Assembly (NCBI RefSeq): GCF_030518155.1
Contig: NZ_JAULRU010000256.1
Coordinates: forward strand, 1-64,000
DNA: 64,000 bases
Source of the DNA: Gilvimarinus gilvus
Lineage (GTDB): Bacteria > Pseudomonadota > Gammaproteobacteria > Pseudomonadales > Cellvibrionaceae
Direction of reading: 5' to 3'
Under the pieces are notes generated by a model. It had not been told where the DNA came from, searched no databases, and saw only the letters and a list, made by a program, of their open reading frames with translations. Both the position numbers and the translations under genes were made by a program. Below, in pieces: positions 3,908-62,245 of this stretch (positions within the stretch are counted from its first letter, which is position 1; every line of letters begins with the position of its first letter).

Positions 3908-3908
3908 A

Positions 3909-44225: not shown

Positions 44226-44409
44226 CTAAGGAGCCTCTGATTAAACCTCCAGTCGTCTGCACGAATCCAAAATGCTCCGTACGTAAGGCGTTTTTCGCAG
44301 GTAATGGCCGTAGCCCCTGGCAAGAAAAAAAACGCCAACCAAGGAGTGTTTTGGCCGCGCCTTTCGGGGCTTACAGAGGCCGCGGGAGACTTAATCGAAG
44401 ATTCCCTAA
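44226..44409 (+). mobile_element. Family B inverted-repeat element, copy B1
   Basis: An element of about 176 bp between CTAA (44226-44229) and CTAA (44406-44409). Its left end is GGAGCCTCTGATTAA and the right end is a diverged inverted copy, TTAATCGAAGATTCC. It shares TTTTGGCCGCGCC-TTTCGGGGCTT and CGCAGG-AATGGCC blocks with B2 but lacks about 90 bp present there. The right-hand CTAA holds the TAG stop of the cls gene on the minus strand. No transposase is encoded. Confidence 0.8.
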
Positions 44410-45854
44410 ATCAGCGGACTAACCAAATGAGTGATATTTTCAAAAAAGCGCGAAACAGCGCGGCGCTGTCGCCACTGTGCCAGCTCAACAACTTCCGAGT
44501 CATGACGGTAAGACTCTATAATTTCCGCTAAACTTCTTACCGTGGCCACATCGTAAATAATCATGGTCATTTCAAAGTTTAACCACAGTGAGCGCAAGTC
44601 CATATTTACCGTACCGAAAAAGGCTAAGCTGTTATCGACAACAACAGCTTTAGTATGCAATAAGCCCTTACCATAGGTCGCTATGGATACGCCTGCCTCC
44701 ATCAAAGACGAAAAATAAGAGTGACTAGCGTGACGAACCAAAAACGAATCTACTTTTTCTGGCACTAACAACCGCACCTGTACACCTCGTCGCGCCGCTA
44801 TTTTTAGTGCGTGCTCCAATGCCTCACCGGGCACAAAGTAGGGGGTGACAATATCCACAGAATATTTCGCACCATAGATCGCCTGCAGCAATGCATTGAG
44901 AATACTCTCTTTGGCGACATCCGGCCCCGAAGGAGCGACCTGCACCAGAGCCTCCCCCACCACCACTACCGGTTGTCCCGACATTTTCAGTAAAGGCTCG
45001 CTGCGTTCAATACTCCAGTACCAACGAAATACTGCATCGAATTGCGGCACCGCCGGGCCCGACACTCTTGCCATAACGTCAATCCATTCGCCGACACCGG
45101 CATCAACTTTAAACAGTTTAGGATCAACTAAATTGAAGCTGCCCATATAAGCCACGCGCTGATCAATGATCACGGTTTTGCGATGGTTACGTAAATCATA
45201 GCGCGCCAACTGCCACGGAATGATACCAATCGGGCAAGCCTTAACCACTGAAGCGCCTATGTCCTTTAGGCGTTTATGAGCTTCGGAGCCAAAGAACGCT
45301 GAGCTGCCAACGGCGTCGAGCATGATACGAAACACCACTCCGCGCGCCGCAGCCTGCTCAATAGCCGCCACCACCTTATCGGTCTCGCCGCCGGGCTGCC
45401 AAATGTAAAACTCCATATGGCAAAAAGACTCAGCGCTTTTGATATCCGCAGCCAGTGAGTCAATAATATGAGGGGCAGACTGTAAAAACTCGACGTTGTT
45501 GCCAGCGACTGGAGGTATACCTGATATAAACGCCTCCAGGCGCGACAGCGGTTCCGCCGACGCATGGTAGTCACTCCAGTCAATGGCCACAGCTGACGGG
45601 GGACTGACGGGGGCATCGCGAAAAACAAACCGTAGCCGAGCCTCGCGCTGCGCCCGTTTCACACCAAGAAAACGCTCGCCAAACAGTAAGTAAAGCGCCA
45701 CGCCAAAATAAGGGAATACCATCAGCACGAGTATCCAGGCCAGCGTTGCCCCTACCGGGAGGCGACGCATAATCACCCGCACCGCCATTGCCACCACCAG
45801 TATCAGGTGGCCCCAGATCAGCAGTTGTTGAATCAGCGTTAACAATCCGTTCAC
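44406..45854 (-). CDS. cls: Cardiolipin synthase (phospholipase D type)
   Basis: Joins two phosphatidylglycerols (or PG with PE) to cardiolipin at the inner membrane. Two N-terminal helices (about 8-30 and 37-60) anchor the protein, and two HKD motifs follow: NHRKTVIIDQRVAYMGSFN and HTKAVVVDNSLAFFGTVN. The 482 residues match ClsA. The GTG start has GGAG five bases upstream. The TAG stop lies within the duplicated target of element B1. A second PLD-family gene lies close at 46602. Confidence 0.93.
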   Translation of the reverse strand: MNGLLTLIQQLLIWGHLILVVAMAVRVIMRRLPVGATLAWILVLMVFPYFGVALYLLFGERFLGVKRAQREARLRFVFRDAPVSPPSAVAIDWSDYHASAEPLSRLEAFISGIPPVAGNNVEFLQSAPHIIDSLAADIKSAESFCHMEFYIWQPGGETDKVVAAIEQAAARGVVFRIMLDAVGSSAFFGSEAHKRLKDIGASVVKACPIGIIPWQLARYDLRNHRKTVIIDQRVAYMGSFNLVDPKLFKVDAGVGEWIDVMARVSGPAVPQFDAVFRWYWSIERSEPLLKMSGQPVVVVGEALVQVAPSGPDVAKESILNALLQAIYGAKYSVDIVTPYFVPGEALEHALKIAARRGVQVRLLVPEKVDSFLVRHASHSYFSSLMEAGVSIATYGKGLLHTKAVVVDNSLAFFGTVNMDLRSLWLNFEMTMIIYDVATVRSLAEIIESYRHDSEVVELAQWRQRRAVSRFFENITHLVSPLI

Positions 45855-45979
45855 ATAGTCTCCTAATGGGCCGCTCCAGACTTTGTCAAAGGCAGTCCCC
45901 GAGCCGTTACAAAACAGGTATTATGTACAACTTAGCGCTACGTCAGTGTACCACGCAGCAGATTTTACAAGGAGATCGT

Positions 45980-46597
45980 ATGCTATTTCGTACATTCACC
46001 ACCTTTATCGGGTGCACCCTATTGGCAGGCTCCGCAACGGCGGCAAATCTCAATTTTATGGGGCGCAGTATTTCCAGTGAGCTGTCCCCAAAAGAGCTGG
46101 AGTCGTTCGTTCACACCGTAAGCAGTGCACTGAACGACTCACCTGACTTGGTGACTTTACACTGGCAATCACCCGACGCGGATACCAAAGGTCGGGTTAA
46201 AATCAAGTACAGCTATCGCCACAACGAAATATTGTGCCGCAAAGCGATACTGGATATTCGGGGGCGGGACGGGCGCCGCGACTTTTTTCACTTTAATGTC
46301 TGCCAAAACGGGGACAAATGGGAATTACAAAAAACTGAAGCCAGCGATTTTAGCCATGCTCAGTGGCAAACGCTGCATGAGCAGTTCAACCGCGTTATAG
46401 CAACAAACCCAGACGGCAAAACCAATACACAAGTGATCGGAGACATCTCCGCCGCCATTACCCCACTGTCAACCACTGCCAATGACCGTGGCAAATGCCG
46501 CGTCATGTCTATCGTCATTAGCAATACCACCTCCCGCAGCAAGGGTATTTATGAGTTCTGTAATAGCGCGGACGGCTGGAGCCGCTCAGCTCCCTGA
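45980..46597 (+). CDS. Secreted hypothetical protein between two PLD-type genes
   Basis: A 205-residue exported protein with a signal peptide (1-21, ending ATAA) and a mature part containing four cysteines (ILCRKAIL, NVCQNGDKW, GKCRVMS, YEFCNSADGW) that could form two disulfides. I recognise no family. The start at 45980 is supported by AAGGAG and by the signal peptide. It is divergent from cls and converges with the PLD lipoprotein gene with a gap of 4 bases. Periplasmic localisation is inferred. Confidence 0.75.
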   Translation: MLFRTFTTFIGCTLLAGSATAANLNFMGRSISSELSPKELESFVHTVSSALNDSPDLVTLHWQSPDADTKGRVKIKYSYRHNEILCRKAILDIRGRDGRRDFFHFNVCQNGDKWELQKTEASDFSHAQWQTLHEQFNRVIATNPDGKTNTQVIGDISAAITPLSTTANDRGKCRVMSIVISNTTSRSKGIYEFCNSADGWSRSAP

Positions 46598-46601
46598 CCC
46601 T

Positions 46602-48158
46602 CTAGAGTTGGGATTCAATCGGCAAAAAAGACAGGATCGAGCTCATCGCCCTGCGCCACCAGCTGGCGTTGGGCTCTTTACTAAAAGTCTGACCCGAGTG
46701 TAGATCTCGCCAGTACAGCTCCCCCTCATCATTCAGCGACACCTGGTATGACGTATCATTGAGCAGCTGACGCGTCCCAGTCAAAACGGCTTCTGCCAGC
46801 TCCGGGGAGTCTATCAACACCCCCATTTCGGTATTTAGCCAAGCCGAACGCGGATCTAAATTAAACGACCCGACAAACACCCAGCGTCTATCGACCACAA
46901 AAACCTTGGCATGCAAACTTGATGTTGAGGAAACACTCCAGACCTTACGCTCGGTATTAGGAGTGCGCTTTATTTCAAAAATCTCGGTGCCTGCCGCCAA
47001 CAGAGCCTCCCGGCTTTGCGCGTAACCACTGTGGACGGCAACCACATCTGTGGCCGCCAACGCGTTGGTTACCACGCTAACGGTAACACCTTCTTGTGCG
47101 CGCCCGGTCAACAATTGAGTACCCGCTTGTGCTGGTACAAAATAAGGTGAGATTAGAAAAAGCTCACTTTCGGCATTTTCGAAAAGTTGCCAAAGCCGGT
47201 TAACCACCAAAGCATTAGATGAGTCTTTTTGTTTGAACAGTTGCAAATCGGGGGTGTCAGACCAAACATCAACCGGCGCCCAATAAAGTGCTCTTTCACC
47301 CCGGCGAATACTTCCTAGCCAGTCTTGTGCATTGACAACTTGCAGATATTCAATGGCATTCAGTTGAGCCACGGCTGCGTCAATTTCCGCGCCCGCACGC
47401 TTTATTAAATCCGGTGCGGGTGGCTCGCTGTTTAACACGCTCAAGGGATATACCAGGTCGCTGTTCCAATAATCGTCAAACTGACCGGTCACTGCAGGCA
47501 CCGAATCGCCTATTAAAAACACATCGGCATCGCCAAAGTTCACGCTCTGGTTTGCGCTAAAATATTCGTCTCCAACATTGCGCCCGCCGACGACGCTGGC
47601 CAGATTGTCTGCGGTAAGCGACTTGTTGTGCATGCGGTGATTTAACCGACTAAACTCTCCGAGCAACTGCCAGGCGCGTGCACGGCGCCAATAAAACGGG
47701 TTGTAAAGACGAACCTCAATATTGGCATGGCTATTCAAAATATTCAGGGGGTAATCACCCGCGCGCTGCTCAAGATCATCCAGTAACAAGCGCACTTTTA
47801 CTCCGCGCTCGGCCGCCATCCATAGCTCGCGAAACAAAAGTATTCCGGTGGCGTCACCGTGAAATAGGTAATATTGCACGTCTAGGGTATGTTGCGCCTT
47901 ACGGATAAGATCAACACGCGCAGCTACCGCATCGACACCACTTGCCAGCAGACGAACGCCGGTACCAAGGCGATCCCCAGTGGCTCTCAATTCAACATCG
48001 AGATCTTTAAAGTATCCCGCCGGAGATGTGCCAGCCACGTAATGGGCATTGATACCACTTCGCTCGGGCGCCGAGGCACAGCCCAACATAAAGGCACAAC
48101 TCAGCAGCACCCATTTCGCATCCGGCAAACGCCTAATCCACCCGGAGCCTTTATTCAT
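46602..48158 (-). CDS. Phospholipase D-family lipoprotein (ClsC-like cardiolipin synthase)
   Basis: A 518-residue protein with a lipobox (FMLGC) at about residues 22-26 and two HKD motifs, HNKSLTADNLASVVGGRN and HAKVFVVDRRWVFVGSFN. The latter is followed by LDPRSAWLNTEMG. This layout fits the YmdC/ClsC group, which makes cardiolipin from PG and PE in E. coli with YmdB. Here the lipid anchor would place it on the periplasmic side. It could instead be a phospholipase. It converges with the secreted protein gene at 45980. Confidence 0.85.
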   Translation of the reverse strand: MNKGSGWIRRLPDAKWVLLSCAFMLGCASAPERSGINAHYVAGTSPAGYFKDLDVELRATGDRLGTGVRLLASGVDAVAARVDLIRKAQHTLDVQYYLFHGDATGILLFRELWMAAERGVKVRLLLDDLEQRAGDYPLNILNSHANIEVRLYNPFYWRRARAWQLLGEFSRLNHRMHNKSLTADNLASVVGGRNVGDEYFSANQSVNFGDADVFLIGDSVPAVTGQFDDYWNSDLVYPLSVLNSEPPAPDLIKRAGAEIDAAVAQLNAIEYLQVVNAQDWLGSIRRGERALYWAPVDVWSDTPDLQLFKQKDSSNALVVNRLWQLFENAESELFLISPYFVPAQAGTQLLTGRAQEGVTVSVVTNALAATDVVAVHSGYAQSREALLAAGTEIFEIKRTPNTERKVWSVSSTSSLHAKVFVVDRRWVFVGSFNLDPRSAWLNTEMGVLIDSPELAEAVLTGTRQLLNDTSYQVSLNDEGELYWRDLHSGQTFSKEPNASWWRRAMSSILSFLPIESQL

Positions 48159-48505
48159 ACCGTATTCCTGTACCTATTCCGGCCATTGTACAATTGCGGA
48201 TATGACAAACATTAGTCTGTGATTGCGACACAAATATCCACGCCTTACAAGCCAAGGCAAGTAGTGCTTTGTCAGGTTCAGATTGCCATTGAAACGCCAG
48301 CTCAAACCGGCGCCAGAAACCTCAGCCATGACATCGGGCTCTGACAAAAGCCCAATGCTCGGCAATATGCCGGCGGCCAGCCCGTATAACCTCACCCTGC
48401 CCTGAGTCACAATAGCGCCCACTGGCTGCAGCATTAGTGATATTTCAGCCAGTGGCGAGTAAACTCTGGTGCACAGCAACCACCAATAATAATGCTGAGA
48501 CGACC
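48159..48505. other. Divergent intergenic region without a supported gene
   Basis: A 347-bp gap lies between the divergent PLD lipoprotein and ThuA-fusion genes. A minus-strand frame of 101 codons crosses it (48174-48479) but shows no recognisable domain and would overlap the promoters of both genes. I see no clear operator or repeat. Confidence 0.5.
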
Positions 48506-51500
48506 ATGGCCAATATACAGAGTAACACCTTAATACTTTTTGCTATTTGTACAATACTTACAGCGTGTGGCGGCGGATCAGGTACCAGCGATTCCGGTAA
48601 CACAGGCGGCTCGGGCTCCTCAATAGCCTCCTCTAGCTCTTCGAGCGTATCCTCGCCCTCGGGCTCATGCCCTGCAAATCAAAAGACCCGGTTATGGCCC
48701 GGCTATACCAAGCCTGAAAACAGCGCTCGCATACTGGTCTTCTCTAAAACAGCAGGCTTTCGGCATTCGAGCATTGAAGTAGGCCAGCAAATGCTGGAAT
48801 CGATCGCACAAGCTAACGACTGGACCGTGGATATCACCGAAGACGCCACCGACTTTCGATTGGACAATCTCAACCACTACAACACCGTGGTTTGGCTCAG
48901 TACCACCGGCGACGTACTTAACAGCGCTCAGCAACAGGCCTTTGAAGAATATATCGAGCACGGTGGTGGCTATCTGGGCATTCACGCTGCGGCAGACACC
49001 GAATACAGTTGGCCTTGGTACGGTGACCTGGTCGGAGCCTATTTTCACTCGCATCCACAAAATCAAACGGCCACTGTGCACGTAGAAAATGCTCAACATC
49101 CAGCAAGCCAGCACCTGGGCGATATCTGGCAGCACTATGACGAGTGGTACAACTATAGGAACAACCCGCGTGAAGGCGTTGAGGTTGTGCTTAGTTTGGA
49201 TGAAACCAGCTACGACCCAGGTGAAGGCGCCATGGGGGATCACCCCATTGCCTGGTACCACACCGTTGGCCTGGGCCGCGCGTTTTACACCGGCCTCGGT
49301 CACACCGAACAAGCCTACGCGGACGCAGATTTTCAAAATCACATCTTGGGCGCACTGCGTTGGGCGGGAAGGCTAAGCAGCTCAACTCCCGACTGGCAGG
49401 GCGCAGCCCCGCCCGACACCGACTTCTCCACGACGGTCATTGCCAGTGGTGTGGATTTACCCGTTGTTATGGAAATTTCCAAGCAGGGGGAAATGTATGT
49501 TATCGGTCGGCGTGGCGCCTTCTATGCAATGCGCAACAACCAATTGACGCAAACCGATACAATTGCCACCAACAGTGTTCACGAAGGTGGCCTTATTGGT
49601 TTTACTTTAGCCCCTGATTTCACTCAAACCCGTCACGCTTATTTTCATTACACAGCGCCGGATTCAGCCACACAGAAAGTCTCACGCATCACGATCAAAG
49701 GTGATCACTCACTGGATTTAAGCTCTGAAGTGGTTGTGCTCGAATATCCCGTAGACTTTGAGTGCTGCCATGTAGCGGGTGACCTGGCCTTCGACTCGTT
49801 AAATAATTTGTACATTGCCATCGGCGATAACACCAACCCATTCGCCTCCGATGGCTACGCTCCTATTGACGAGCGGCCGGGGCGCAACGTCTTCGACGCC
49901 CAGCGCACCTCAGCCAACAGCGCCGACGTGCGTGGCAGCATTCTGCGCATAAAACCCAATGCCGATGGCGGTTACACAATTCCCGACCGCAATCTGTTCG
50001 TGGCTGACAATCAACACCGTGGCGAAATATTTTCTATGGGGCTCCGCAACCCCTATCGAACCGCCCTCGACTCTCTCACCGACCAATTGTTTTGGGGTGA
50101 CATCGGCCCCGATGCCGGCGGCTCCAATCCAACCCGCGGCCCCGGCGGTATTGACGAGATTAATAAAACATACCAAGCAGGCAATTTTGGCTGGCCTTAT
50201 CTGGCCGGTAACAACATCGCCTACTACGATTACGACTTTGCCACGGGTCAATCTGGTGCCTTATTCAGCGCCCATGCTCTGCGCAATTTGTCCGTTAACA
50301 ATACTGGAAGCATCGAACTACCACCCGCTCAACCCGCATGGATAAGCATGAGTCACCGCGCCCTTATGGTCGGCGACGTTTACCGCTGGTCCAACAGCAT
50401 TGCCGATGAGTACAAGCTGCCCAGCTATTTTGACGGGCGCCTACTGTTCTGGAATTTTAACAATGACCGTATGTATGAAGTGCACGTCGATGACGATGCG
50501 GGCAGCTTCCGCACTTGGCTCGATACCTCACGGCTCGCCGGCATTATTGATGCAAAAATATCACCGCAAAATCACCGTTTGTACTTACTCGGTTACGGGG
50601 GCAACTGCTGCGACTCACCGGCCAACTCCGGCATGTTGGCAGAAGTTCGTTACACGGGTAGTGGGCCCGAAACGCCGTCACCGACAACGCCAACATATAC
50701 CGCAGGTGACAGCGTAACCTTTAGTATCGATGGCAAAATACTAACGGCCCTTGGCAATAACAATTTGGCCCTTGCCGATGCTCCGGCCGGCAATGCCAGT
50801 ATCTTTTCGTTAGAAAGCGCAACAGGCAACCATGTCTATTTACAGTCAGTATCCACAGGGCTATACATTCGTCTGGATGACGCCGGCACTTTGGTGCTCG
50901 ATGCCACAAACACCGCACAAGCCGAAGCCTTTGAACTGCAGCAAAATCAAGACGGCAGCTATGCGTTAAAGTCCTCGGGGCTATGCCAATACGTGAGTCT
51001 GGCTGGCAGCAGTGATCTATTTTTGTCTGCTAATGCCAATACGGTAGGCAACTTACAGATCTTTGACTTGAATGCCGCGCAAGCGTGCACGCTCGATGAG
51101 TCTCGGGGCATTGCCTGTCGAACCGACGCCCCCGCCTATCTGAATATGCCCGAGGTGCCGGCCACCGATTTCAGCAACCTGCCTGCGCTCTTGTCGCAAA
51201 CCGGCGCGTTTGCCGACACGGCCACTTTAACCCCGGCGCAAAGCTTAATTCCGTACTCGGTTATCGCGCCTTTGTGGTCTGACGGCGCGCAAAAAGACCG
51301 ATGGTTTTCTTTGCCAACAGGCACCACCATCGGCTGGAACGAAAACGAGAAATGGCAGTGGCCAGCGGGCACCGTTTTCGTAAAACACTTCACTTTACCG
51401 ATCGACGAAAGCGACACCAGTGCAAGGCAACGACTGGAAACGCGGCTGCTGGTAGTCGGGGCTGCCGGCAGTGTGTATGGCGCCACCTATAAATGGCGCG

Positions 51501-52150
51501 ACGACAACTCTGACGCCGACCTGCTCAACGACGCTTTAAATGAAACCATCACCATTGCCCCAGCCAATGGTGAACGGCAACAAACGTGGACGTACCCAGG
51601 CCCCGAAGATTGCCTGGCGTGTCACAACATCGACGCACAGGGTGTGCTCGGTGTTAAAACGGCTGCGCTAAACAGCACATGGCAATACCCATCCGGTGTT
51701 ACCGACCATCAGCTGTTAACACTCAGTCATTTGGGCGCACTTGATACTGTGTTAACCGCAGCCGACTTAACAAGCCTGCCAGCCCATGCCGCGGTAAATG
51801 ACAACACCGCGAGCCTTGAGTTGCGAGTTCGCAGTTACTGGGATGTCAACTGCGCCAACTGCCATGGTGTACAGGGCATTGCCAGCCTGTGGGATGCACG
51901 CATGACGACACCACTGGACGAACAAGGCATTGTCAACGGTGCGCTGGCCAACCAGCGCGACTATCTAACCGAGTACGGGCTGGCAAATCCCGCCGTCGTT
52001 AGCCCGGGAAGTCCAGACAATTCCATTTTATACATTCGCGACAAAAGTGCAGACGTTGGCGATCGAATGCCACCGCTAGGGCGCAACCTGCCCGATGAGG
52101 ACTACCTACACTTATTGGAGACCTGGATTAACCAGTTAGAAACGCCGTAG
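48506..52150 (+). CDS. Multidomain lipoprotein: ThuA, sorbosone-dehydrogenase-like, fascin-like and c-type cytochrome
   Basis: A 1214-residue lipoprotein (lipobox LTAC, C21) with a Ser/Gly linker (22-55). Modules in order: a ThuA-like domain (about 75-290: ILVFSKTAGFRHSSIEVG, GGGYLGIHAAADTEY); a six-bladed PQQ-type glucose/sorbosone dehydrogenase domain (about 310-700); a beta-trefoil fascin-like part (about 735-870); and a C-terminal region like the HNE_0200 family with two CxxCH haem sites, CLACH and CANCH. The order suggests extracellular or periplasmic sugar oxidation with electron transfer to haem c. Substrate and activity are unknown. A terminator follows. Confidence 0.85.
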   Translation: MANIQSNTLILFAICTILTACGGGSGTSDSGNTGGSGSSIASSSSSSVSSPSGSCPANQKTRLWPGYTKPENSARILVFSKTAGFRHSSIEVGQQMLESIAQANDWTVDITEDATDFRLDNLNHYNTVVWLSTTGDVLNSAQQQAFEEYIEHGGGYLGIHAAADTEYSWPWYGDLVGAYFHSHPQNQTATVHVENAQHPASQHLGDIWQHYDEWYNYRNNPREGVEVVLSLDETSYDPGEGAMGDHPIAWYHTVGLGRAFYTGLGHTEQAYADADFQNHILGALRWAGRLSSSTPDWQGAAPPDTDFSTTVIASGVDLPVVMEISKQGEMYVIGRRGAFYAMRNNQLTQTDTIATNSVHEGGLIGFTLAPDFTQTRHAYFHYTAPDSATQKVSRITIKGDHSLDLSSEVVVLEYPVDFECCHVAGDLAFDSLNNLYIAIGDNTNPFASDGYAPIDERPGRNVFDAQRTSANSADVRGSILRIKPNADGGYTIPDRNLFVADNQHRGEIFSMGLRNPYRTALDSLTDQLFWGDIGPDAGGSNPTRGPGGIDEINKTYQAGNFGWPYLAGNNIAYYDYDFATGQSGALFSAHALRNLSVNNTGSIELPPAQPAWISMSHRALMVGDVYRWSNSIADEYKLPSYFDGRLLFWNFNNDRMYEVHVDDDAGSFRTWLDTSRLAGIIDAKISPQNHRLYLLGYGGNCCDSPANSGMLAEVRYTGSGPETPSPTTPTYTAGDSVTFSIDGKILTALGNNNLALADAPAGNASIFSLESATGNHVYLQSVSTGLYIRLDDAGTLVLDATNTAQAEAFELQQNQDGSYALKSSGLCQYVSLAGSSDLFLSANANTVGNLQIFDLNAAQACTLDESRGIACRTDAPAYLNMPEVPATDFSNLPALLSQTGAFADTATLTPAQSLIPYSVIAPLWSDGAQKDRWFSLPTGTTIGWNENEKWQWPAGTVFVKHFTLPIDESDTSARQRLETRLLVVGAAGSVYGATYKWRDDNSDADLLNDALNETITIAPANGERQQTWTYPGPEDCLACHNIDAQGVLGVKTAALNSTWQYPSGVTDHQLLTLSHLGALDTVLTAADLTSLPAHAAVNDNTASLELRVRSYWDVNCANCHGVQGIASLWDARMTTPLDEQGIVNGALANQRDYLTEYGLANPAVVSPGSPDNSILYIRDKSADVGDRMPPLGRNLPDEDYLHLLETWINQLETP

Positions 52151-52177
52151 TTTACTTGGAGCACTGTCGTCACTTGC

Positions 52178-52212
52178 AAAAAAAGGGGGCGCCGAACGGT
52201 GCCCCCTTTTTA
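52178..52212. terminator. Bidirectional terminator after the ThuA-fusion gene
   Basis: Inverted repeat AAAAAGGGGGC...GCCCCCTTTTT with a 10-base loop, A-rich on one side and T-rich on the other. It lies between the convergent genes ending at 52150 and 52229. Confidence 0.85.
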
Positions 52213-52228
52213 CACGCAAACTAAAAAT

Positions 52229-54190
52229 TTATATATCTTTCGCCAGTTTTGCGGCACGCACCAATTGCACGAATTCAGTCCGATAACCAAACGGGTCTGA
52301 CCCTTTATTAGCCTGCGCCAGTGCAATAATATCATCCAGTGAATACTGACCAATGTACTCACCGCCACTTAAGTACTGGGCAAACGCAGCTACCGCGATG
52401 GAGAAATCTATTTCTTGGCGCAAACTCGGCGCGATGGAGTTCTCAATTATCGATGCGGTAATTTTTCGTGATTCGCTCTGCTCTGGCAGCTTGTAGCGCA
52501 ATTTAAAGAACCCAAACTCTTTGGTTTTATTGCCGGCTGCTTGCTCATCCTGAACACCATAACGCAGCGGGTCAATGGTTGCCAAGTCAGAGCCGGTGGG
52601 AACAATTTCATACAAAGCAGTCACACTGTGTCCGGCGCCAATGTCACCCGCATCGACTTTATCGTTGTTGAAGTCGGCGCGGTCCAACAAACGGGTTTCA
52701 TAACCAATCAGGCGATACTCTTTCACCTGAGCGGGGTTGAACTCAATTTGTATTTTTACATCATTGGCAATCGGGAACAGGGACGAATTAGCCTGATCCA
52801 CCAACACTTTGCGCGCCTCATTAAGCGAATCGATATAGGCGGCAATACCGTTACCATTTTGCGCCAACGTTTGCATCAGATGATCGTTGTAATTACCGCT
52901 ACCAAAACCAAGTACACTTAAATAAACTCCGGTTTCGCGCTTTCTTTTCACAAAGCTCTTCAGCTGCTCGGTATCATTAATGCCCACGTTAAAATCACCG
53001 TCGGTGGCGAGGATAATCCGGTTAACAGCTTCTTTATCAAAATTTTGCTCTGCGAGTTGGTAAGCCAGTTCAATACCCTCAGCGCCGGCAGTAGAGCCAC
53101 CCGCGCGCAGTTGACGCAGCGCGTTAAGAATTTTGGTTTTATCTTTAATGGCGGTAGGCTCAAGTACAGTGCCGGCTGCGCCTGCGTACACCACGATGGA
53201 AAGTGTATCCTCCGGGCTCAGCTGCTCGACCAACAGCTCCATTGACTGCACAAGTAGAGGTAATTTATCTGGCTCATTCATTGAACCAGACACGTCCAGC
53301 AAGAACACCAGATTGGTGCGTTTATTAATAATGGCTGAAGGCTCATAGCCTTTAATACCCACATGCACCAACTTTTTGCCTGGCGCCCAGGGTGAATCAA
53401 CCACGTGAATTAATGGACGGAAGGGTTGCTCCGTTGACTCTGCCGACGGGTAACGATAATCAAAATAATTAATCATCTCCTCAGCGCGAACAGCATCGGC
53501 CGGAGGTAAACGACCTTCGTTCAAACTGCGGCGCACAAAACTGTAGGAGGCGGTATCTACATCAATTGAAAACGTTGACACCGGCTGCTCTTGGGTCAAC
53601 TTAACGTTATTGTGTTTAATTTCTTCGAATTCGTCTCTATTTTCTAACTTTTTACCATGGTGAAGTTCGTAGGACATGGAATCTGCCAGTGATAGCCTCG
53701 CGGGATTCACCTTGCGTTCGAGTCTTTTACCCAGTACTGGTGGGGAGCTTACAGGAGCTGGTGCGGCGTCCATGACCAGCGCGGCAACGTCCTTCTCCGC
53801 TGCATAGCGAACTTCGATTGCCTGAGGCTCGGTGTAGATCACCGCCTCCTCCATAGCAATGTCTTCCAACATTACGGGTTCGTTAGCGACATCTCGGTTC
53901 AAAAAGGTCGGCAACACCAATGCAACGCCCACCAGCAATAAGCCTGCGCTGGCAACACCGCCCAACAATGTACGATTTTCAATAATCATGGCAACTCTCC
54001 CGAGTGTGTTTGTTGCCATAAGACGCAAGCGGGAGAATAATCCTTGGGAATTTTTTTCACTCGACTGCGAGTGCTGCTGTTGCGCAGCCTCTTGTTCAAA
54101 CTTTTCGCGTGCCAAAGCAATAGCCTTTCTCCGCGCCGAAGGATCGGGGGTAGGCGTTGTTTGCTCGATATGTCGGTCAAAATCTTTCAT
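52229..54190 (-). CDS. von Willebrand factor A protein, YfbK family, sigma-factor-linked
   Basis: A 653-residue membrane protein with a cytosolic N-terminus (1-73), one helix (75-96), a YfbK N-terminal domain (about 170-270: EQPVSTFSIDVDTASYSFVRRSL) and a vWA domain whose MIDAS motif DVSGS is intact (D299, S301, S303). A C-terminal DUF3520-like domain completes it. The ATG overlaps the sigma factor stop by four bases (ATGA), so it may act as an anti-sigma-type or signal-receiving partner. Ligands of the vWA domain are unknown. Confidence 0.88.
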   Translation of the reverse strand: MKDFDRHIEQTTPTPDPSARRKAIALAREKFEQEAAQQQHSQSSEKNSQGLFSRLRLMATNTLGRVAMIIENRTLLGGVASAGLLLVGVALVLPTFLNRDVANEPVMLEDIAMEEAVIYTEPQAIEVRYAAEKDVAALVMDAAPAPVSSPPVLGKRLERKVNPARLSLADSMSYELHHGKKLENRDEFEEIKHNNVKLTQEQPVSTFSIDVDTASYSFVRRSLNEGRLPPADAVRAEEMINYFDYRYPSAESTEQPFRPLIHVVDSPWAPGKKLVHVGIKGYEPSAIINKRTNLVFLLDVSGSMNEPDKLPLLVQSMELLVEQLSPEDTLSIVVYAGAAGTVLEPTAIKDKTKILNALRQLRAGGSTAGAEGIELAYQLAEQNFDKEAVNRIILATDGDFNVGINDTEQLKSFVKRKRETGVYLSVLGFGSGNYNDHLMQTLAQNGNGIAAYIDSLNEARKVLVDQANSSLFPIANDVKIQIEFNPAQVKEYRLIGYETRLLDRADFNNDKVDAGDIGAGHSVTALYEIVPTGSDLATIDPLRYGVQDEQAAGNKTKEFGFFKLRYKLPEQSESRKITASIIENSIAPSLRQEIDFSIAVAAFAQYLSGGEYIGQYSLDDIIALAQANKGSDPFGYRTEFVQLVRAAKLAKDI

Positions 54191-54732
54191 GAGAGTTGCT
54201 CTCGTTCGAGCTGTGCCAGATGTTTGCGAATATCGTGAATCCGCCAGGATATGGTGGCCTCGGACACACTCAGTGCGGCTCCGGCCTCGGCATGACTCAG
54301 CCCCTCGAACAGCACCAATAGAGCCGTTTCTTTGTAGCCTTTGCCCCAGCGGTCGATACGTACCATCAGCTGACTGAGATAAATCTGTGACTCGGCATTG
54401 CCGCCTAAACTGGCGACGTCACCTTCGCTGTATTCCTCGCCATTGTGGCGATTTTCACGGCGCTGCCAGTCTTTCGCGCAGTTGATCACCAAACGATACA
54501 ACCAAGAGCTAAAGCTCGCCTCAAACCGGTATTGGCTGATAGCGCCCGCGACTTTCATGCAACTATTCTGAGCGACGTCTTCGGCCGCTCCTTGATCACC
54601 GCACCAGCGATAGGCAAAGCGGTACATAGCATCGTAGTAATGCTCAAGCAACGCCTCAAAGGCATCCGCATCCCCCGACTGGGCGTCGCGTATCAGCTGA
54701 TCTGTTTTCGCTGTGGTCAGATGGTCGGTCAT
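54187..54732 (-). CDS. ECF RNA polymerase sigma factor
   Basis: A 181-residue sigma-70 family factor with region 2 (FEALLEHYYDAMYRFAYRWCGDQGAAEDVAQNSCMKV...FSSWLYRLVINCAKD) and region 4 (LVLFEGLSHAEAGAALSVSEATISWRIHDIRKHL). Such factors paired with YfbK-like vWA proteins are common in gammaproteobacteria, with unknown regulons. A 7-bp-stem hairpin covers the ribosome binding site (54737-54753), which suggests translational control. Confidence 0.9.
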   Translation of the reverse strand: MTDHLTTAKTDQLIRDAQSGDADAFEALLEHYYDAMYRFAYRWCGDQGAAEDVAQNSCMKVAGAISQYRFEASFSSWLYRLVINCAKDWQRRENRHNGEEYSEGDVASLGGNAESQIYLSQLMVRIDRWGKGYKETALLVLFEGLSHAEAGAALSVSEATISWRIHDIRKHLAQLEREQLS

Positions 54733-54736
54733 CGTT

Positions 54737-54753
54737 CCTTAGGACGCCTAAGG
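54737..54753 (-). promoter_or_regulatory. Hairpin over the ribosome binding site of the ECF sigma gene
   Basis: On the minus strand CCTTAGG-CGT-CCTAAGG forms a perfect 7-bp stem with a 3-base loop. Its 3' arm contains the Shine-Dalgarno-like TAAGGA, four bases before the ATG. In the mRNA it would hide the ribosome binding site until melted or bound by a factor. A role is inferred. Confidence 0.6.
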
Positions 54754-54804
54754 CGTGAAAATCCTTGGAAATAGTTAACAACTTTGTAGGGTAATGCACC
54801 GGCT

Positions 54805-55081
54805 CTAGCAGGCTGTCGGCATAACCGCACGACAAGCTAATTGTATTCTACAGTGCGGCAAGAGGTAAGCAATGGCTCCAGCAACGCCGCCAGTTACTCC
54901 GGCGAGGGCGTAGTGGAATAATACGACCCACCTGCCCGGCCAGCCCTGCGGGACTTTCAGGCTTGCCCGTACTCGTCGTTGCCACTTTTCGATGGGTGGG
55001 CACACACCGTCAAAGTGGCGCCTAGATTACGAACCAGCCTGAGAGTCTGAGTACGTAAGGGGTTTTTCAGCAGCCTGCTGG
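54805..55081 (+). mobile_element. Family A element, copy A3 (right half only, chimeric)
   Basis: The left end begins CTAGCAGGCTGT but then differs (CGGCATAACCGCAC...) up to about 54940. The right 135 bp match A2 closely (CCTGCGGGACTTTCAGGC..., CTCGTCGTTGCCACTTTTCGAT..., CGCCTAGATTACGAACCAGCCTGAGAGTCTGAGTACGTA). The right terminal repeat ends CAGCAGCCTG followed by CTGG. The target copy is thus mutated (CTAG versus CTGG). It may be a recombinant of two elements or a decayed copy. Confidence 0.7.
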
Positions 55082-55126
55082 TCCAATCATGCGTAGCTTA
55101 CGTAACATATCAGACAATCCCATTGA

Positions 55127-55146
55127 CTTAGGAACCTCTGATCAAG
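55127..55146 (+). repeat. Solo terminal repeat of family B
   Basis: CTTAGGAACCTCTGATCAAG matches the end of the family B elements (GGAGCCTCTGATYAAG) but no second end follows. It lies about 20 bases before the hydrolase start at 55168, so it may be a relic of an excised or decayed element and now forms part of the promoter region. Confidence 0.55.
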
Positions 55147-55167
55147 ACTGTGAAAAAAAGAGCTACA

Positions 55168-56013
55168 ATGACAAAACTATTTGGCATTATCACCGGCCTG
55201 GCTACCCTGAGCGCATGCTCGAGCACCGATGTGCTGAATACGTTAAACCGGGCGGAGCATTACCGCACGCATACCAGCCTGACTTATGGGCAGCAGCCGC
55301 GCCAAACGCTGGACGTCTATCAACCGCGCCAACCCGATGCTACATCAGCCAGCTGCCTGGTGGTATTTGTTTACGGTGGGGGTTGGGATTCTGGCCGCAA
55401 AGAGCAATATGGTTTTGTGGGAGCGCAGCTCGCCAAGCGCGGACACACCGTTGTTATACCCGACTACCGACTGTACCCAGATGTTGCGTACCCAACATTT
55501 GTCGAAGACGTCTCACTTGCCATCGCCAGTGAAAAAGTCAGCGAATTGCGCAACGAACGGCCTTTGATACTCATCGGCCATTCCGCCGGCGCCATGATTG
55601 CCGGCCTGATTAGCTACGATGACCGTTACTTGCGCTCTCAAGGTTTAGACAAGTCCGTCATTGACGGATACATCAGTCTCGCCGGGCCCCACGATTATTT
55701 TCTACCAAGCGACAAGCCGCGCTGGGTGAGCATCTTCGGTGAGGCAGCAGACCAGCAACGCTCCGCTTTAACCGTGGAGCATATACACGCAAACAACCCG
55801 CGTACGCTTATTCTGCACGGCGCGGATGATGACACCGTCACCCCCAACTCGGCGCACTCGCTGCAGCGCAAACTCGCTGCGGTTAACGTTTCCGCAACAA
55901 AGAAAATATACTCAGGCGTGGGGCATGTACGCATCATGGCTGCCATGGCCTGGCCACTGCATTTTTTGGCGCCAACGCTACAAGACATTGATACCGAACT
56001 AGCAGGCTGTTGA
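55168..56013 (+). CDS. Alpha/beta hydrolase lipoprotein (esterase-like)
   Basis: A 281-residue lipoprotein (TLSAC lipobox at residue 17) of the BD-FAE/HSL esterase type. The oxyanion motif appears as FVYGGGWDSGRK, the nucleophile elbow as IGHSAGAM, and the late acid and His as LHGADDDTVTP and GVGHVRIM. ATG at 55168 is preferred over GTG at 55150. The last four codons and the TGA stop are contributed by the family A element A4, which begins at the CTAG inside codon CTA-G. The native C-terminus is therefore lost or extended. Substrate unknown. Confidence 0.82.
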   Translation: MTKLFGIITGLATLSACSSTDVLNTLNRAEHYRTHTSLTYGQQPRQTLDVYQPRQPDATSASCLVVFVYGGGWDSGRKEQYGFVGAQLAKRGHTVVIPDYRLYPDVAYPTFVEDVSLAIASEKVSELRNERPLILIGHSAGAMIAGLISYDDRYLRSQGLDKSVIDGYISLAGPHDYFLPSDKPRWVSIFGEAADQQRSALTVEHIHANNPRTLILHGADDDTVTPNSAHSLQRKLAAVNVSATKKIYSGVGHVRIMAAMAWPLHFLAPTLQDIDTELAGC

Positions 56014-56420
56014 AAAAACCCATGCATGCTCAGCGTAGCCTGAAGCGTGCAGATGTTGTGTCTTGTCTCGACGGACAGGGTGGTTCCCTTTGCTAGGGAG
56101 CCTCTGATCAAGTCTCCAGTGGACTCTGCGCGAGTCAAAACGTTCACTCGGCAAGGCGCGCTTCGCAGGCAATGGCCATAGTCCTTGGCAAGAGGTGTAA
56201 CACAGCGGATGGACGTTTTGGCCGCGCCCTTCGGGGCTTGCAGAGCTTTCCGATCTCTGTGTTGGCTCCCCTCACCGAGCCATCGGCACGCCATCGGATC
56301 GCCGCCTTGACCTCTCGAAAAGCTCTGTAAGCCAGAGGCCACTGAGGACTTAATCAGAGGCTCCCTAGAGGCAAAGCGCAGCAGATGTGCGCTAATGCGA
56401 GGGGAAAGAGGCAATGCCGA
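55995..56420 (+). mobile_element. Family A element, copy A4, interrupted by element B2
   Basis: A4 begins CTAGCAGGCTGTTGAAAAAACCC and follows A2 through GACAGGGTGGTTCCCTTTG, then is split by B2 at a CTAG. After B2 it resumes with CTAGAGGCAAAGCGCAGCAGATGTGCGCT as in A1, then diverges; its right end is degraded and its end coordinate is approximate. The left end supplies the last codons and the stop of the hydrolase gene. Confidence 0.75.
56093..56368 (+). mobile_element. Family B inverted-repeat element, copy B2, nested inside A4
   Basis: A 268-bp element (56097-56364) with 18-bp terminal inverted repeats, GGAGCCTCTGATCAAGTC versus GGAGCCTCTGATTAAGTC, flanked by direct CTAG copies (56093-56096 and 56365-56368). 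Copies A1 and A2 hold the uninterrupted sequence with a single CTAG, so CTAG was duplicated on insertion. No transposase is encoded, so it must have been moved in trans. A 4-bp YTAR-type target points to an IS5-like transposase, which is an inference. Confidence 0.88.
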
Positions 56421-56486
56421 CGAGTCAAAAGTCAACACCCCCGAGGTTAACCGAAGGGCAGAATATGGCTTACACAATAAAATCGT

Positions 56487-56891
56487 TTAAAACTCTTTAG
56501 GCGCAAAACCGGTAACAACTTTTACGCCCATTTTCTTACCCACGGCCGTTAAAGGGTGAACCACCACCAAACCTTTCACGGATTTTTTAAGCTTGCCCAT
56601 ATCCGCCTGCTCCTGCTTGGTTAAGGCACGATTAAAGGCCATGCTTTTAACATCCTGAGCGGCCTTGTCGGCCTCGCGGGTTTTAATCTCTTTATTGGCG
56701 GCCAGCTCGCTTTCGAGCTTGCGAATGTCGTTTTGCAACTGCTTAGCCATCACGTCATCTCCCCGCCCCTTAGCGGCGGCTAGTTTTCGGCGTGCTTTAT
56801 CGAGTTGGTTGTTGAGGTTCTGTATAGACTGCTGGAGATTCAAGGGGGAGTACCTATCGAAATTGGGAGTGTAGCACGCCTGGGCGGTCAT
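56487..56891 (-). CDS. yibL: YibL family ribosome-associated protein
   Basis: A 134-residue protein matching YibL. The C-terminal block ALTKQEQADMGKLKKSVKGLVVVHPLTAVGKKMG is nearly that of E. coli YibL, and the N-terminal 80 residues form a charged coiled coil (LNNQLDKARRKLAAAKGRGDDV). YibL associates with ribosomes in E. coli and its role is not clear. The start is uncertain: ATG at 56891 or TTG at 56843, neither with a strong ribosome binding site. It stands alone between repeats and the amidohydrolase operon. Confidence 0.88.
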   Translation of the reverse strand: MTAQACYTPNFDRYSPLNLQQSIQNLNNQLDKARRKLAAAKGRGDDVMAKQLQNDIRKLESELAANKEIKTREADKAAQDVKSMAFNRALTKQEQADMGKLKKSVKGLVVVHPLTAVGKKMGVKVVTGFAPKEF

Positions 56892-56987
56892 ATCTGAGCT
56901 ACACCCCCTGCCTGGCTACATTGACCATATTTTACCTGAATTTCACCGGTTCTGATGCATGCTTTCCCCTAACGGAGGAAAGCCGAT

Positions 56988-58562
56988 ATGCCCAATTCAA
57001 CCCCGCTTAAGGCAGTGCTGTACAAAACACTGCTGTTGATTCTTAGCCTTGCGGCCGTGACCCTCTTGGTCAGTGCCTGTAGCTATTACCAGAAGGTTCC
57101 CGCACCAACGCCTGTTGATCGGTATATTATTGAGCAGGTCACCCTGATCGATGTCGTCAATCAGAAGTTACTCACCAACCGCTTTGTCACCGTCGACGAC
57201 GGTCGCATTGTTCAAATCAGCGCTTGGGACACTCATAAGCTGAACCCGCCATCACACCCAAACCTGCGTCGCATTGATGGGCGTGGTAAATACCTAATGC
57301 CAGGGCTGTGGGACATGCATACGGTACTGACGCGACTGTCGCCCGAGCTGGACTACCCACTGTTTATCGCGCACGGTGTGACCTCCATCCGCAGCAACTT
57401 AACCTGCCCACACCAAGACCGGGTTTCGCTCTACCCGTGTTTTGCCCAAAAGCAACAGTGGAACCAGCGAGTAGCTCAGGGGCAACTGATCGGCCCTCGC
57501 ATTCGCGGGTCCGGTACCTTTCCCGTAAACGGAGCTGACCACCAGCACCCGGACTCGCCAACCTGGCACGGCGCCGACAGCTTAGAGCAAGCCGAAACGC
57601 TGGTGGATTACTACGCAAGCCTGCCGGAATCACTGCGCCCCTTCTTTATAAAAAATTACAACTGGGTAAAGCCCGACGCCTACTTTGCCATGGTTAATAT
57701 GGCGCAAAATAGGGGTCTGGAAATCGGCGGGCACATGCCACGCAAAGTCGGCCTCGAACCATCAGTGCTCGCGGGGCAGCGCTCGTTCGCCCACGCCCGC
57801 CTGTTTATGTATGAGTGCTCAAGCGAGGCGCAAGCTTTGCGCGAAGGCAAGCACTGGGACTTGCCCCTGGCTCAACTCTACCAACTGCTGCTCGACACTC
57901 ACGACCCGGCACTGTGTGATCAACGCTATCAATTGTTGGCACAACACAATGTTTTTCTCTCCCCTACTCTGCTGACCCGACGCAACGATTACCTGGGCCT
58001 ACAGGGGCAACTGACATCGAGGCCCGCCAATAAGTTTGGCCACTACTTATTTACCCTGGAATGGCGCGAAGAGATTGCCGGGCTCAGTGACACCCCAGAG
58101 CAAGACGCGCCGGTTTTTGATCAGTTTTACCAAGCGGCCGCCGCGACCATTGTTCGCGCCCACCATGAGGGTGCCAACTTAATGGTGGGTACCGATGCCA
58201 ACGATATTTTTGTGATACCCGGCGCCTCAATACATGAAGAGATGCTCGAACTGAACCGCGCTGGCATCGATAATTTCGATGTACTGACCGCGGCAACCCA
58301 CACCCCCGCCCAATACTTTAGGCAAACGGACGACGCGGGTAGCGTAGCTGTGGGCAAACAGGCTGACCTACTATTATTAAATGCCAACCCAGTAGAAAAC
58401 ATCCAACATACGCAATCCATTCATATGGTGCTTCAGGGGCGGCTTATTTATGATGAGACGACACTGGCAGCGCTCAAAAACCGCGCCAGGGCACGAGCAA
58501 AAAGTCACTGGCCAACCGTAAAACTGTTATTCTGGTGGGCGCAAAATCCGGGAGGTTTTTAG
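56988..58562 (+). CDS. Amidohydrolase-family lipoprotein with an incomplete metal site
   Basis: A 524-residue lipoprotein (LVSAC lipobox, C31) of the imidazolonepropionase/prolidase-like amidohydrolase superfamily. The usual HxH at the start of the barrel reads H111-T-V113, so the second metal ligand is missing. Later positions are present: FIKNYN (Lys), GGHMPR, SFAHAR, and GTDAND with the catalytic Asp. The activity may be changed or lost. GGAGG precedes the ATG. It heads an operon with a response regulator and a sensor kinase, which start five bases after the stop. Confidence 0.85.
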   Translation: MPNSTPLKAVLYKTLLLILSLAAVTLLVSACSYYQKVPAPTPVDRYIIEQVTLIDVVNQKLLTNRFVTVDDGRIVQISAWDTHKLNPPSHPNLRRIDGRGKYLMPGLWDMHTVLTRLSPELDYPLFIAHGVTSIRSNLTCPHQDRVSLYPCFAQKQQWNQRVAQGQLIGPRIRGSGTFPVNGADHQHPDSPTWHGADSLEQAETLVDYYASLPESLRPFFIKNYNWVKPDAYFAMVNMAQNRGLEIGGHMPRKVGLEPSVLAGQRSFAHARLFMYECSSEAQALREGKHWDLPLAQLYQLLLDTHDPALCDQRYQLLAQHNVFLSPTLLTRRNDYLGLQGQLTSRPANKFGHYLFTLEWREEIAGLSDTPEQDAPVFDQFYQAAAATIVRAHHEGANLMVGTDANDIFVIPGASIHEEMLELNRAGIDNFDVLTAATHTPAQYFRQTDDAGSVAVGKQADLLLLNANPVENIQHTQSIHMVLQGRLIYDETTLAALKNRARARAKSHWPTVKLLFWWAQNPGGF

Positions 58563-58567
58563 TTGCA

Positions 58568-59263
58568 GTGGGCTCATTAAAAATACTCATCATTGAAGAC
58601 AACGCCACCATTGCCGCGCAAACCGGCGAGTTTCTCTGTGGCCTCATGTGGCAAGTGGATTTTGCTGCGGATGCCGCGCTGGGCGCGCACTTAGCCCGCA
58701 CCGAAATCTACGATGTCATATTGCTGGACTTGAACCTTCCCGACCAGGACGGCCTGGATCTGTGCCAAACCATCAAGCGCGAGGCCGAACGCACGCCGCC
58801 CATTTTAATGGTGACCGCACGTGACAGCTTTGAGGACAAGGCCGCGGGCTTCAACCGGGGCGCGGATGATTACCTTACCAAACCTTTCGATTTGCGCGAA
58901 CTGGCGCTGCGCTGTCAGGCCCTTGCCCGCCGTCAGTCGCTGCACCAACCCAAGGTATGGGAGGTGGGGTCTTTGCGCCTGAACGCGCGCACACAACAGG
59001 CGTGGCGAGAAAGCACCTTGCTCAACCTAACCCATACCGGATTCAAGATTCTCGACGCGCTGGCCCAGGCCTACCCAGAGCCCGTTTCCCGCTCTGTGCT
59101 AAGTCACCATTTGTGGGGCGACTCGCCACCGGAAACGGACGCACTCAAATCCCACGTGTACGCACTGCGCCAGGCACTCGACAAACCTTTTGCCCACCCC
59201 ATGCTTAAAACCATTCTCAACGTCGGCTACAAACTGGAGGGGCTGGATGACTTTGATACGTAG
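58568..59263 (+). CDS. OmpR/PhoB-family response regulator
   Basis: A 231-residue regulator with a receiver domain (IEDN acidic pair, phosphoacceptor D54 in ILLDLNLPDQDGL, the conserved Lys in DDYLTKPFDLRE) and a winged-helix DNA-binding domain (LTHTGFKILDAL, SVLSHHLWGD, KSHVYALRQALDKP). The GTG at 58568 is the best start; a longer frame to 58535 overlaps the amidohydrolase. It is followed by its kinase with an overlap of 17 bases. Confidence 0.9.
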   Translation: MGSLKILIIEDNATIAAQTGEFLCGLMWQVDFAADAALGAHLARTEIYDVILLDLNLPDQDGLDLCQTIKREAERTPPILMVTARDSFEDKAAGFNRGADDYLTKPFDLRELALRCQALARRQSLHQPKVWEVGSLRLNARTQQAWRESTLLNLTHTGFKILDALAQAYPEPVSRSVLSHHLWGDSPPETDALKSHVYALRQALDKPFAHPMLKTILNVGYKLEGLDDFDT

Positions 59264-61410: not shown

Positions 61411-61518
61411 AAGTAGACCTCCTTAGTACTGATACGTTAGAGAAGCGGGGCTAGATGCAAGAAGTCAGGGAAGAACGTGCTTGGTATCGTGGGAAGTCCA
61501 GTCCGCCACCACTTATGC

Positions 61519-61848
61519 TCAGAATAGGAAATCCAAAAGTTTCTGCCCCTCGCCAACCTTTCTTTTGTAAATGTCTGTATATCCGCAGTCCATACAGCTG
61601 ACTGTAATATACCTTTCAGTTTCTACATCTATAACGGCATGCAGACCACTGCCCGCCGCATGCAAATACCCAGGTTCATAACCTTCACAACCGCATTTCG
61701 GGCAACTGTATGACTGCCCCATTTGTTTATCAGCGATAGCCTTCTTTACGGCCTTAATATTTTCAGGGTATTTCTCACCATTTATAGAATTAAGAGCATC
61801 AAACAGCTCTTCGAGTGAGTAGGAATCAAAGTCTGGTCGATCTCGCAT
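61519..61848 (-). CDS. Zn-ribbon protein with N-terminal helical extension
   Basis: A 109-residue protein with an N-terminal helical part (1-44, SLEELFDALNSINGEKYPENIKAVKKAI) and a zinc ribbon with C49-x2-C52 and C85-x2-C88 (SCPKCGCEG ... SCMDCGYTDIYK). The ribbon half resembles the YpzJ-like group (COG3478), where a terminal FDFLF-type tail follows (LLDFLF here). Such proteins are presumed nucleic-acid binders. Cys spacing and the C-terminal motif support a functional ribbon. It is not obviously linked to neighbours. Confidence 0.75.
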   Translation of the reverse strand: MRDRPDFDSYSLEELFDALNSINGEKYPENIKAVKKAIADKQMGQSYSCPKCGCEGYEPGYLHAAGSGLHAVIDVETERYITVSCMDCGYTDIYKRKVGEGQKLLDFLF

Positions 61849-62245
61849 AGCTTCCTCTTGCTGACGAAAAATCTAAAACTACTTTAACTTTATTTTGATG
61901 AAGAAAACAGCCCATCTATGGAAAGAAGTGGAGCCAGATAAGACTTGTGGCTTAATTTTCACTTATCGAATCGTCGTACGCCACATTTCGCGACATTGGC
62001 CCTGCGCCCCGTGAGTTGCTCTACCTAATTCTTAAAGCGTACATAGCCCAGTACTAAACCTCAGTTAATCGAAGTATGCTGGAGTAATCGGCAGTTTCAA
62101 TACGACCTAGGCTGTCCATGGCTTCACTCTTGAATACAAACGAGCGATATATTAAAAAATAGTGGTACAAACTTACGACACAGCAACGAAGATTACCGGC
62201 CATAAGTTTCATATAACACGACTAAATTTATTGATTTAGGCTGTA
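61849..62245. other. AT-richer intergenic region without a supported gene
   Basis: About 397 bp between the Zn-ribbon and beta-lactamase-like genes. It looks AT-richer than the core region. A 38-codon frame from about 61900 is the longest thing with an ATG, and it has no recognisable content. No hairpin terminator or operator stands out. Confidence 0.5.

Follow-up and report, generated by a model that had tools for sequence, protein, structure and literature searches.

We analysed a 64,000-nucleotide stretch of DNA from Gilvimarinus gilvus (Gammaproteobacteria, Cellvibrionaceae; contig NZ_JAULRU010000256.1, positions 1 to 64,000; the window) and in particular the 1214-residue protein P0001, which is encoded there in one open frame, 48506..52150, on the + strand. 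P0001 is an uncommon form within a widely distributed superfamily whose members join a ThuA module to a GSDH-type (sorbosone-dehydrogenase-like) propeller, here called ThuA-GSDH proteins. We propose, with a probability of roughly 0.45, that P0001 is a cell-surface glycoside dehydrogenase whose product is a 3-keto sugar and which passes the electrons along two haems. The proposal builds on the modules of the protein, the fold of its ThuA and propeller parts, the conservation of its catalytic residues and of both haem sites, and a haem-attachment gene in the genome, all of which were found by computation.

In searches of an open-access library, we found no study of a ThuA-GSDH protein (ThuA with a sorbosone or pyrroloquinoline quinone [PQQ] sugar dehydrogenase). 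The names given to such proteins often come from PQQ sugar dehydrogenases. Our analysis puts the PQQ assumption for these widespread proteins in doubt, and the evidence points to 3-keto sugar chemistry.

Modules and conserved residues of P0001

The features of P0001, with the evidence for each, are as follows (pLDDT, predicted local distance difference test; sGDH, soluble glucose dehydrogenase).

48506..52150, +, whole coding sequence of P0001, predicted lipoprotein of 1214 amino acids (aa) (open frame)
48506..48568, +, signal peptide with terminal lipobox L18-T-A-C21 (sequence; lipobox rule)
48569..48685, +, Ser/Gly-rich linker, residues 22-60 (composition)
48728..49366, +, ThuA module, residues 75-287 (Pfam PF06283; conservation; structure match)
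49418..50665, +, GSDH-type six-bladed propeller, residues 305-720 (Pfam PF07995; model pLDDT; match to 2ism)
49763..49771, +, Cys420-Cys421-His422, vicinal cysteines preceding the catalytic His (His in 56/56 and CC in 43/56 rows; aligned with the sGDH His)
50045..50050, +, Arg514-Asn515, at sGDH Arg228-Asn229 (56/56 rows; alignment)
50540..50551, +, Gly-Ile-Ile-Asp (679-682) replacing sGDH Arg-Tyr-Arg-Asp, PQQ clamp missing (alignment, 56 rows)
50606..50611, +, second vicinal pair, Cys701-Cys702 (5/5 ThuA-last rows and 0/2 ThuA-GSDH rows of alignment A1)
50711..51121, +, beta-trefoil-like (fascin-like) module, residues ~736-872, in the slot held by F5/8 type C (F5/8C) in sister proteins (sub-threshold Pfam match; alignment A1; slot)
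51182..52138, +, dihaem cytochrome module (TIGR03806-like), residues 893-1211 (NCBIfam match; dihaem tree)
51611..51625, +, haem site 1, CLACH, residues 1036-1040 (sequence, dihaem comparison)
51851..51865, +, haem site 2, CANCH, residues 1116-1120 (sequence, dihaem comparison)
52067..52069, +, Met1188 of DRMPP, possible axial ligand of haem 2 (MPP in 18/18 modules)

The open frame and the lipobox bear out the original prediction that P0001 is a single lipoprotein. An alternative GTG start lies upstream at 48437, and the ATG at 48506 was preferred because it yields a signal peptide, the lipobox LTAC (C21) and the Ser/Gly-rich linker; the assignment of C21 follows the lipobox rule. P0001 is probably an outer-membrane lipoprotein.

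The ThuA module was recognized correctly, as it matches the entire PF06283 profile (1-209 of 209; E, 2.7e-74), and its model matched 4jqs with a Z score of 25.1. Conservation was assessed in 56 chosen rows (2, 10, 13, 15, and 16 from five groups) taken from a larger list of open reading frames (ORFs). Residues H87, H160, D164, W169, W171, H183, D212, E213, Y215, Y236, H246, and H266 are invariant in all of them, and the five invariant His together with several invariant acidic residues suggest that ThuA is an active enzyme.

The GSDH assignment was likewise upheld by Pfam, with a match to PF07995 over the cut-off (residues 318-567; E, 2.5e-27; profile 3-223 of 332); in the alignment and the model, the propeller extends beyond the end of this match, to residue ~720. 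An AlphaFold model of residues 55-1214 has pLDDT values mostly above 90 in ThuA and the propeller and is poor beyond residue ~720. The best structural match of the propeller was 2ism (Z, 39.7; 325 residues; 2.2 Å), and further PQQ sugar dehydrogenases matched as well (3a9g, Z 39.3; 2g8s, 38.1; 1cru, 33.4), in a comparison whose listed rows scarcely probe P0001 outside the propeller and ThuA. His422, Arg514, and Asn515 are invariant in the 56 rows and also in all 65 rows of alignment A2 (P0001, L060, L063, and 62 of 78 candidates). Vicinal cysteine pairs occur twice in the propeller, at 49763-49768, adjoining the catalytic His (43/56 rows), and at 50606-50611. Vicinal disulfides beside PQQ are known in alcohol dehydrogenases.

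The dihaem module matches TIGR03806 (SO2930 family) over residues 893-1211 (profile 2-314 of 314; E, 1.8e-67), with 227.7 bits against a curated cut-off of 313.3. The predicted C-terminal region with two CxxCH sites was therefore confirmed in CLACH and CANCH and in a near full-length, though sub-cut-off, profile match. Two CxxCH sites followed by MPP are kept in 18/18 dihaem modules compared, and the Met of this motif may be an axial ligand of haem 2. Against solved structures, phmmer gave only weak matches to the dihaem part (best E, 0.18). The genome of G. gilvus has a match over the cut-off to TIGR00353, an NrfE/CcmF-type haem-attachment model, and haem attachment is supported. While the ThuA, GSDH, and dihaem parts are firm, the proposed fascin or beta-trefoil part is no more than suggestive: the Pfam fascin match (residues 763-854; E, 0.00096) scores 19.7 bits, under the cut-off of 23.1, and the copy of P0001 in genome G027 (see below) has no fascin match at E 0.01. 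This region is poor in the model, and a model of residues 727-1214, built from 3 rows, had a mean pLDDT of 33.

Proposed reaction and link to 3-keto sugars

We infer the substrate, the position oxidized, the ThuA reaction, the role of the trefoil, the cofactor, the location, and the electron path. At the cell surface, the trefoil would help to hold a glycan or glycoside, and the propeller would oxidize one hydroxyl of the sugar to a keto group, with C3 as the most likely position. A quinone-type cofactor would be bound near His422, Arg514, and Asn515; it may be scavenged PQQ bound in a modified manner. ThuA would then act on the 3-keto product, and the electrons would pass to the two covalent haems of the same chain and on to the respiratory chain. 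The earlier suggestion that sugar binding, oxidation, and electron transfer are joined in one surface polypeptide fits the domains and the presence of the TIGR00353 gene; its PQQ-type assignment is only partly supported. If oxidation, product handling, and electron transfer all reside on a single chain, the 3-keto idea would be testable with one purified protein.

We propose C3 oxidation, and the action of ThuA on a keto product, by analogy, because relatives of these proteins are fused to or neighbour PF06439 (DUF1080, or 3keto-disac_hyd) domains. Among PF06439 proteins are BT2157, which hydrolyses 3-ketotrehalose, and an enzyme found beside LacABC and proposed to hydrolyse 3'-ketolactose (PMC9007349). 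A named-genome scan for the ThuA-GSDH pair, which took in 80 of 589 confirmed places and was not exhaustive, gave 85 ORFs (L060 and L063 included), mostly in Actinomycetota and Bacteroidota, showing that the pair is widespread. In a seed search, PF06439 was found in 4 of these 85 ORFs and in some ORF of 9/80 loci. Prauserella L061 holds ThuA, GSDH, CBM6, and 3keto-disac_hyd (E, 3.6e-41) on one chain.

The G. gilvus genome has eight PF06439 matches (seven over the cut-off) and five matches to a DUF7133 propeller (three over the cut-off). On contigs C166 and C674, where the DUF7133 match is below the cut-off, the propeller shares its chain with PF06439 and cytochrome c. On C264, a DUF7133 propeller with cytochrome c adjoins an ORF for PF06439, and there is a slight overlap between their open frames. 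Like P0001, these proteins join a propeller and cytochrome c to a sugar-processing domain (as neighbours on C264); unlike P0001, they have a DUF7133-like propeller, and PF06439 replaces ThuA.

The domains of L061 (7791-12434, +) are ThuA, GSDH, PKD, CBM6, 3keto-disac_hyd, and FIMAH, and in L064 (Amycolatopsis xylanica), GH99 follows CBM6. The DUF7133-like propellers with cytochrome c that are fused to or next to 3keto-disac_hyd in the G. gilvus genome lie at L175 6139-9741 (-), L176 1292-4639 (+), and L177 4678-7781 (-). The C264 pair adjoins a TonB receptor, and an open frame with two CxxCH sites lies ~4 kb from PF06439 ORFs (L177 14553-15998, +).

Cofactor and competing explanations

Several points weigh against our proposal, the sharpest new one being the absence of the RxR clamp. 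The motif RxR[DE], which lies towards the C-terminal end of the propeller domain and is present in 1c9u, 2g8s, and 2ism, contains sGDH Arg406 and Arg408, which bind the PQQ carboxylates (residue roles as given in PMC6881789 and PMC6881810). The full RxR is absent in 56/56 rows: the second Arg occurs in 0/56 and the first in 14/56 (4 Bacteroidota, 10 Actinomycetota), with none in the P0001 group, the group with a C-terminal ThuA ("ThuA-last"), or the ThuA-GSDH group of Cellvibrionaceae. A 377-aa GSDH from the G. gilvus genome keeps RIRH, and a Rufibacter GSDH keeps RIRD. GSDH-dihaem proteins without ThuA (L053, L054, L058) likewise lack RxR[DE] in the propeller. Moreover, P0001 scored 41.8 bits with the NCBIfam PQQ-dehydrogenase subfamily model TIGR03606, far under its cut-off of 434.55. 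The call of a PQQ-type dehydrogenase stands for the fold and for the catalytic residues His422, Arg514, and Asn515, but neither for the clamp, replaced by G-I-I-D, nor for the subfamily.

In a search of the G. gilvus genome for two PQQ synthesis genes, pqqC and pqqE, there was no match to pqqC and none over the cut-off to pqqE. The search was able to detect pqqC, which was over the cut-off in 11/144 family genomes and in 0/14 control genomes; pqqE gave a sub-cut-off match in G. gilvus and in 14/14 controls. Among family genomes with a strong match to P0001 (E 1e-100 or better; 35/144, G. gilvus included), 0/35 had pqqC versus 11/109 of the others, a difference that is not significant and a trend at most (Fisher p, 0.066), the two lists having no overlap and both 144-genome sets being assumed identical. 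Cells can also import PQQ from their surroundings. The original prediction had named as damaging a genome with neither PQQ supply nor haem attachment; at most the first half was found here, the TIGR00353 gene being present. In PMC10916295, the pf08450-X173 pair of a shipworm symbiont, which by BLAST is nearest to proteins with PQQ sugar dehydrogenase annotations, is reported to have neither PQQ binding nor glucose dehydrogenase activity; this pair is a distant relative at most.

The proposed product faces points of the same kind. PF06439 also includes an endo-xanthanase/lichenase (PMC9007349), and the domain is uncommon, being found in 1/14 ThuA-GSDH proteins scanned with Pfam (L061 only). The other DUF7133 matches, on C152 and C185, have no PF06439 close by, the nearest on C185 being ~9 kb off. 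The PF06439 link concerns other ThuA-GSDH proteins and other propellers, P0001 itself being without a PF06439 partner. In rhizobia, ThuA takes part in the formation of 3-keto sugars.

P0001 could instead be an ordinary PQQ aldose dehydrogenase that oxidizes C1 of free sugars to lactones with scavenged PQQ, the fused haems serving as acceptor and ThuA having a side role. E. coli-type Asd carries out such a C1 oxidation with scavenged PQQ. By fold, the solved structures nearest to the propeller are those of PQQ sugar dehydrogenases (2ism and 3a9g), and the catalytic His/Arg/Asn are kept. Nor does the loss of RxR need to mean the loss of PQQ, since L054 lacks the motif (2387-4627, -; a GSDH-dihaem protein without ThuA) and yet its genome, G032, carries pqqC. 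It is no proof in any case, because AA12 enzymes bind PQQ through a set of residues that differs in part, keeping one C-terminal Arg and using another Arg and His residues instead (PMC6881789). Arg627 of P0001 aligns with sGDH Lys377 and is Arg in 12/12 rows of the P0001 and ThuA-last groups, but it is not kept in the remaining three groups (3/13, 0/15, and 11/16 rows). With both RxR Arg absent and no pqqC in the genome or in the 35 strong-match genomes, we regard this explanation as rather unlikely.

The propeller might also be a non-catalytic binding scaffold, as in Hedgehog-interacting protein (HHIP), leaving only ThuA and the haems to work. HHIP shares the fold (7pgm; Z, 33.4) and matches the profile, but the invariance of His422, Arg514, and Asn515 and the repeated fusion of the propeller with cytochrome c modules make such a role quite improbable. 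A partner of lytic polysaccharide monooxygenases (LPMOs) that binds polysaccharide and feeds electrons outward, like Cbp2D of Cellvibrio, would fit the sister proteins with carbohydrate-binding-type domains and the host, which belongs to the same family as Cellvibrio (Cellvibrio L063 is in the trees), a family with known examples of large, modular redox proteins at the surface. The X183 cytochrome domain of Cbp2D can reduce LPMO, slowly (PMC10916295 and PMC12542752), but TtX183 domains failed to power a bacterial LPMO acting on cellulose (PMC10916295). In a search that covered one LPMO family, LPMO_10 (PF03067), no match was found in the G. gilvus genome and 1/14 controls were positive, which lowered our estimate; we consider an LPMO partner improbable.

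A bolder version of our glycoside dehydrogenase proposal is that ThuA-GSDH proteins as a whole form their own line of propeller dehydrogenases and no longer use PQQ in the known way, relying instead on a different quinone-like cofactor or on a reworked PQQ site; they would make 3-keto glycans at the cell surface, feed their own haem wire, and use ThuA on the product. This would be suggested by the missing full RxR clamp and by the vicinal cysteines beside the catalytic His, which are mostly kept, and we think it speculative and unlikely. If true, it would be a further route to 3-keto sugars, beside LacABC and the NAD-type ThuB enzymes.

Distribution, descent and gene surroundings

The full module order was suggested to be possibly rare, and the counts support this. 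The whole chain in the P0001 order was present in 2/144 family genomes, G. gilvus itself and G027 (57% identity over residues 13-1211), and, among 369 genomes drawn from the class, in G. gilvus only, with the best four (family) or best two (class) candidates per genome scored. Evidently the same protein occurs in the metagenome-assembled Alteromonadaceae bacterium NORP12 (L060), with identical module coordinates and scores.

We compared P0001 with its closest relatives. ThuA-GSDH proteins of Actinomycetota, Bacteroidota, and Cellvibrionaceae (most of L061-L139, L014-L027, L039) share with it ThuA followed by the same propeller with invariant catalytic residues, the CCH motif (41/44 rows), and, in Cellvibrionaceae and most Bacteroidota, a CxxCH cytochrome c site. 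In contrast to P0001, they usually have one CxxCH or none and carry PKD, CBM6, or other domains in place of the trefoil and dihaem parts. The ThuA-last proteins are a second kind in Cellvibrionaceae, with the order GSDH, F5/8C, dihaem, (F5/8C)n, ThuA (L040, L042-L046, L048, L049, L056, L063); they have sister GSDH and dihaem modules but differ in their C-terminal ThuA, in F5/8C occupying the trefoil slot, and in having no CCH (10/10). The G. gilvus genome also holds a ThuA-last protein (C56, 2083 aa), a ThuA-GSDH-cytochrome c protein (C792, 835 aa), and a lone ThuA (C261). In two genomes, the ThuA-last protein has an ORF for a DHOR dihaem oxidoreductase immediately upstream (L042 705-3059; L045 2-2284), and a Dyadobacter protein (L113 7911-12020, +) has two tandem ThuA modules ahead of the GSDH propeller.

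Compared with better-known enzymes, P0001 shares the six-bladed propeller and the His/Arg/Asn with bacterial PQQ sugar dehydrogenases (sGDH 1cru, Asd 2g8s, 3a9g, 2ism) but lacks the RxR clamp; those solved chains have no ThuA or haem modules. The Coprinopsis AA12 pyranose dehydrogenase (CcPDH) combines a propeller dehydrogenase, a cytochrome, and a carbohydrate-binding module in one chain (PMC6881789), but it is fungal, has a cytochrome b (AA8) and no ThuA, and shows 13% identity in the regions of 6i1q and 6jt5 that align; 6i1q also ranked lower among the propeller matches (Z, 30.2).

In both the GSDH tree (56 rows; SH-like approximate likelihood ratio test [SH-aLRT], 99; quick method) and the dihaem tree (support, 99/98), P0001 and its G027 copy are sister to the ThuA-last group. 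In the ThuA tree, the ThuA-last modules group with 9/21 stand-alone ThuAs (97/81, long branches), the other 12/21 sit among ThuA-GSDH proteins, and the ThuAs of the two full-order proteins fall along the path connecting the ThuA-GSDH and ThuA-last sets, without forming one clade. The trees therefore point to a shared GSDH-X-dihaem unit (X being the trefoil in P0001 and F5/8C in ThuA-last proteins) with ThuA at opposite ends. We rejected a simple permutation of ThuA as the established history, given the grouping of the C-terminal ThuA with stand-alone ones, and separate acquisition seems at least as likely on this evidence. At ~420-460 and 560-600, the P0001 propeller resembles ThuA-GSDH proteins more; over most of its remaining length it is nearer to the GSDH-dihaem group, a pattern that at first hinted at recombination. 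A chimera within the propeller was also rejected, as sliding identity gave no clean breakpoint and the whole-domain tree joins P0001 to the GSDH-dihaem group (SH-aLRT, 99); retained ancestral loops would explain the mixed likeness better than recombination.

The statement that no redox or sugar-transport genes flank P0001 holds for the ten neighbouring ORFs scanned (44406-63433), and no operon with sugar or redox genes was seen in this range. Promoter-like sites were at chance level (4 observed versus 3.2 expected). Nine of the ten ORFs received a family assignment and one did not; the families are two phospholipase-D-like proteins, a YfbK-like protein, an extracytoplasmic function (ECF) sigma factor, two alpha/beta hydrolases, an amidohydrolase, a response regulator, and a beta-lactamase-like protein. 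The YfbK-like von Willebrand protein is encoded directly beyond P0001 on the opposite strand, at 52229-54732 (-), with the ECF sigma factor gene.

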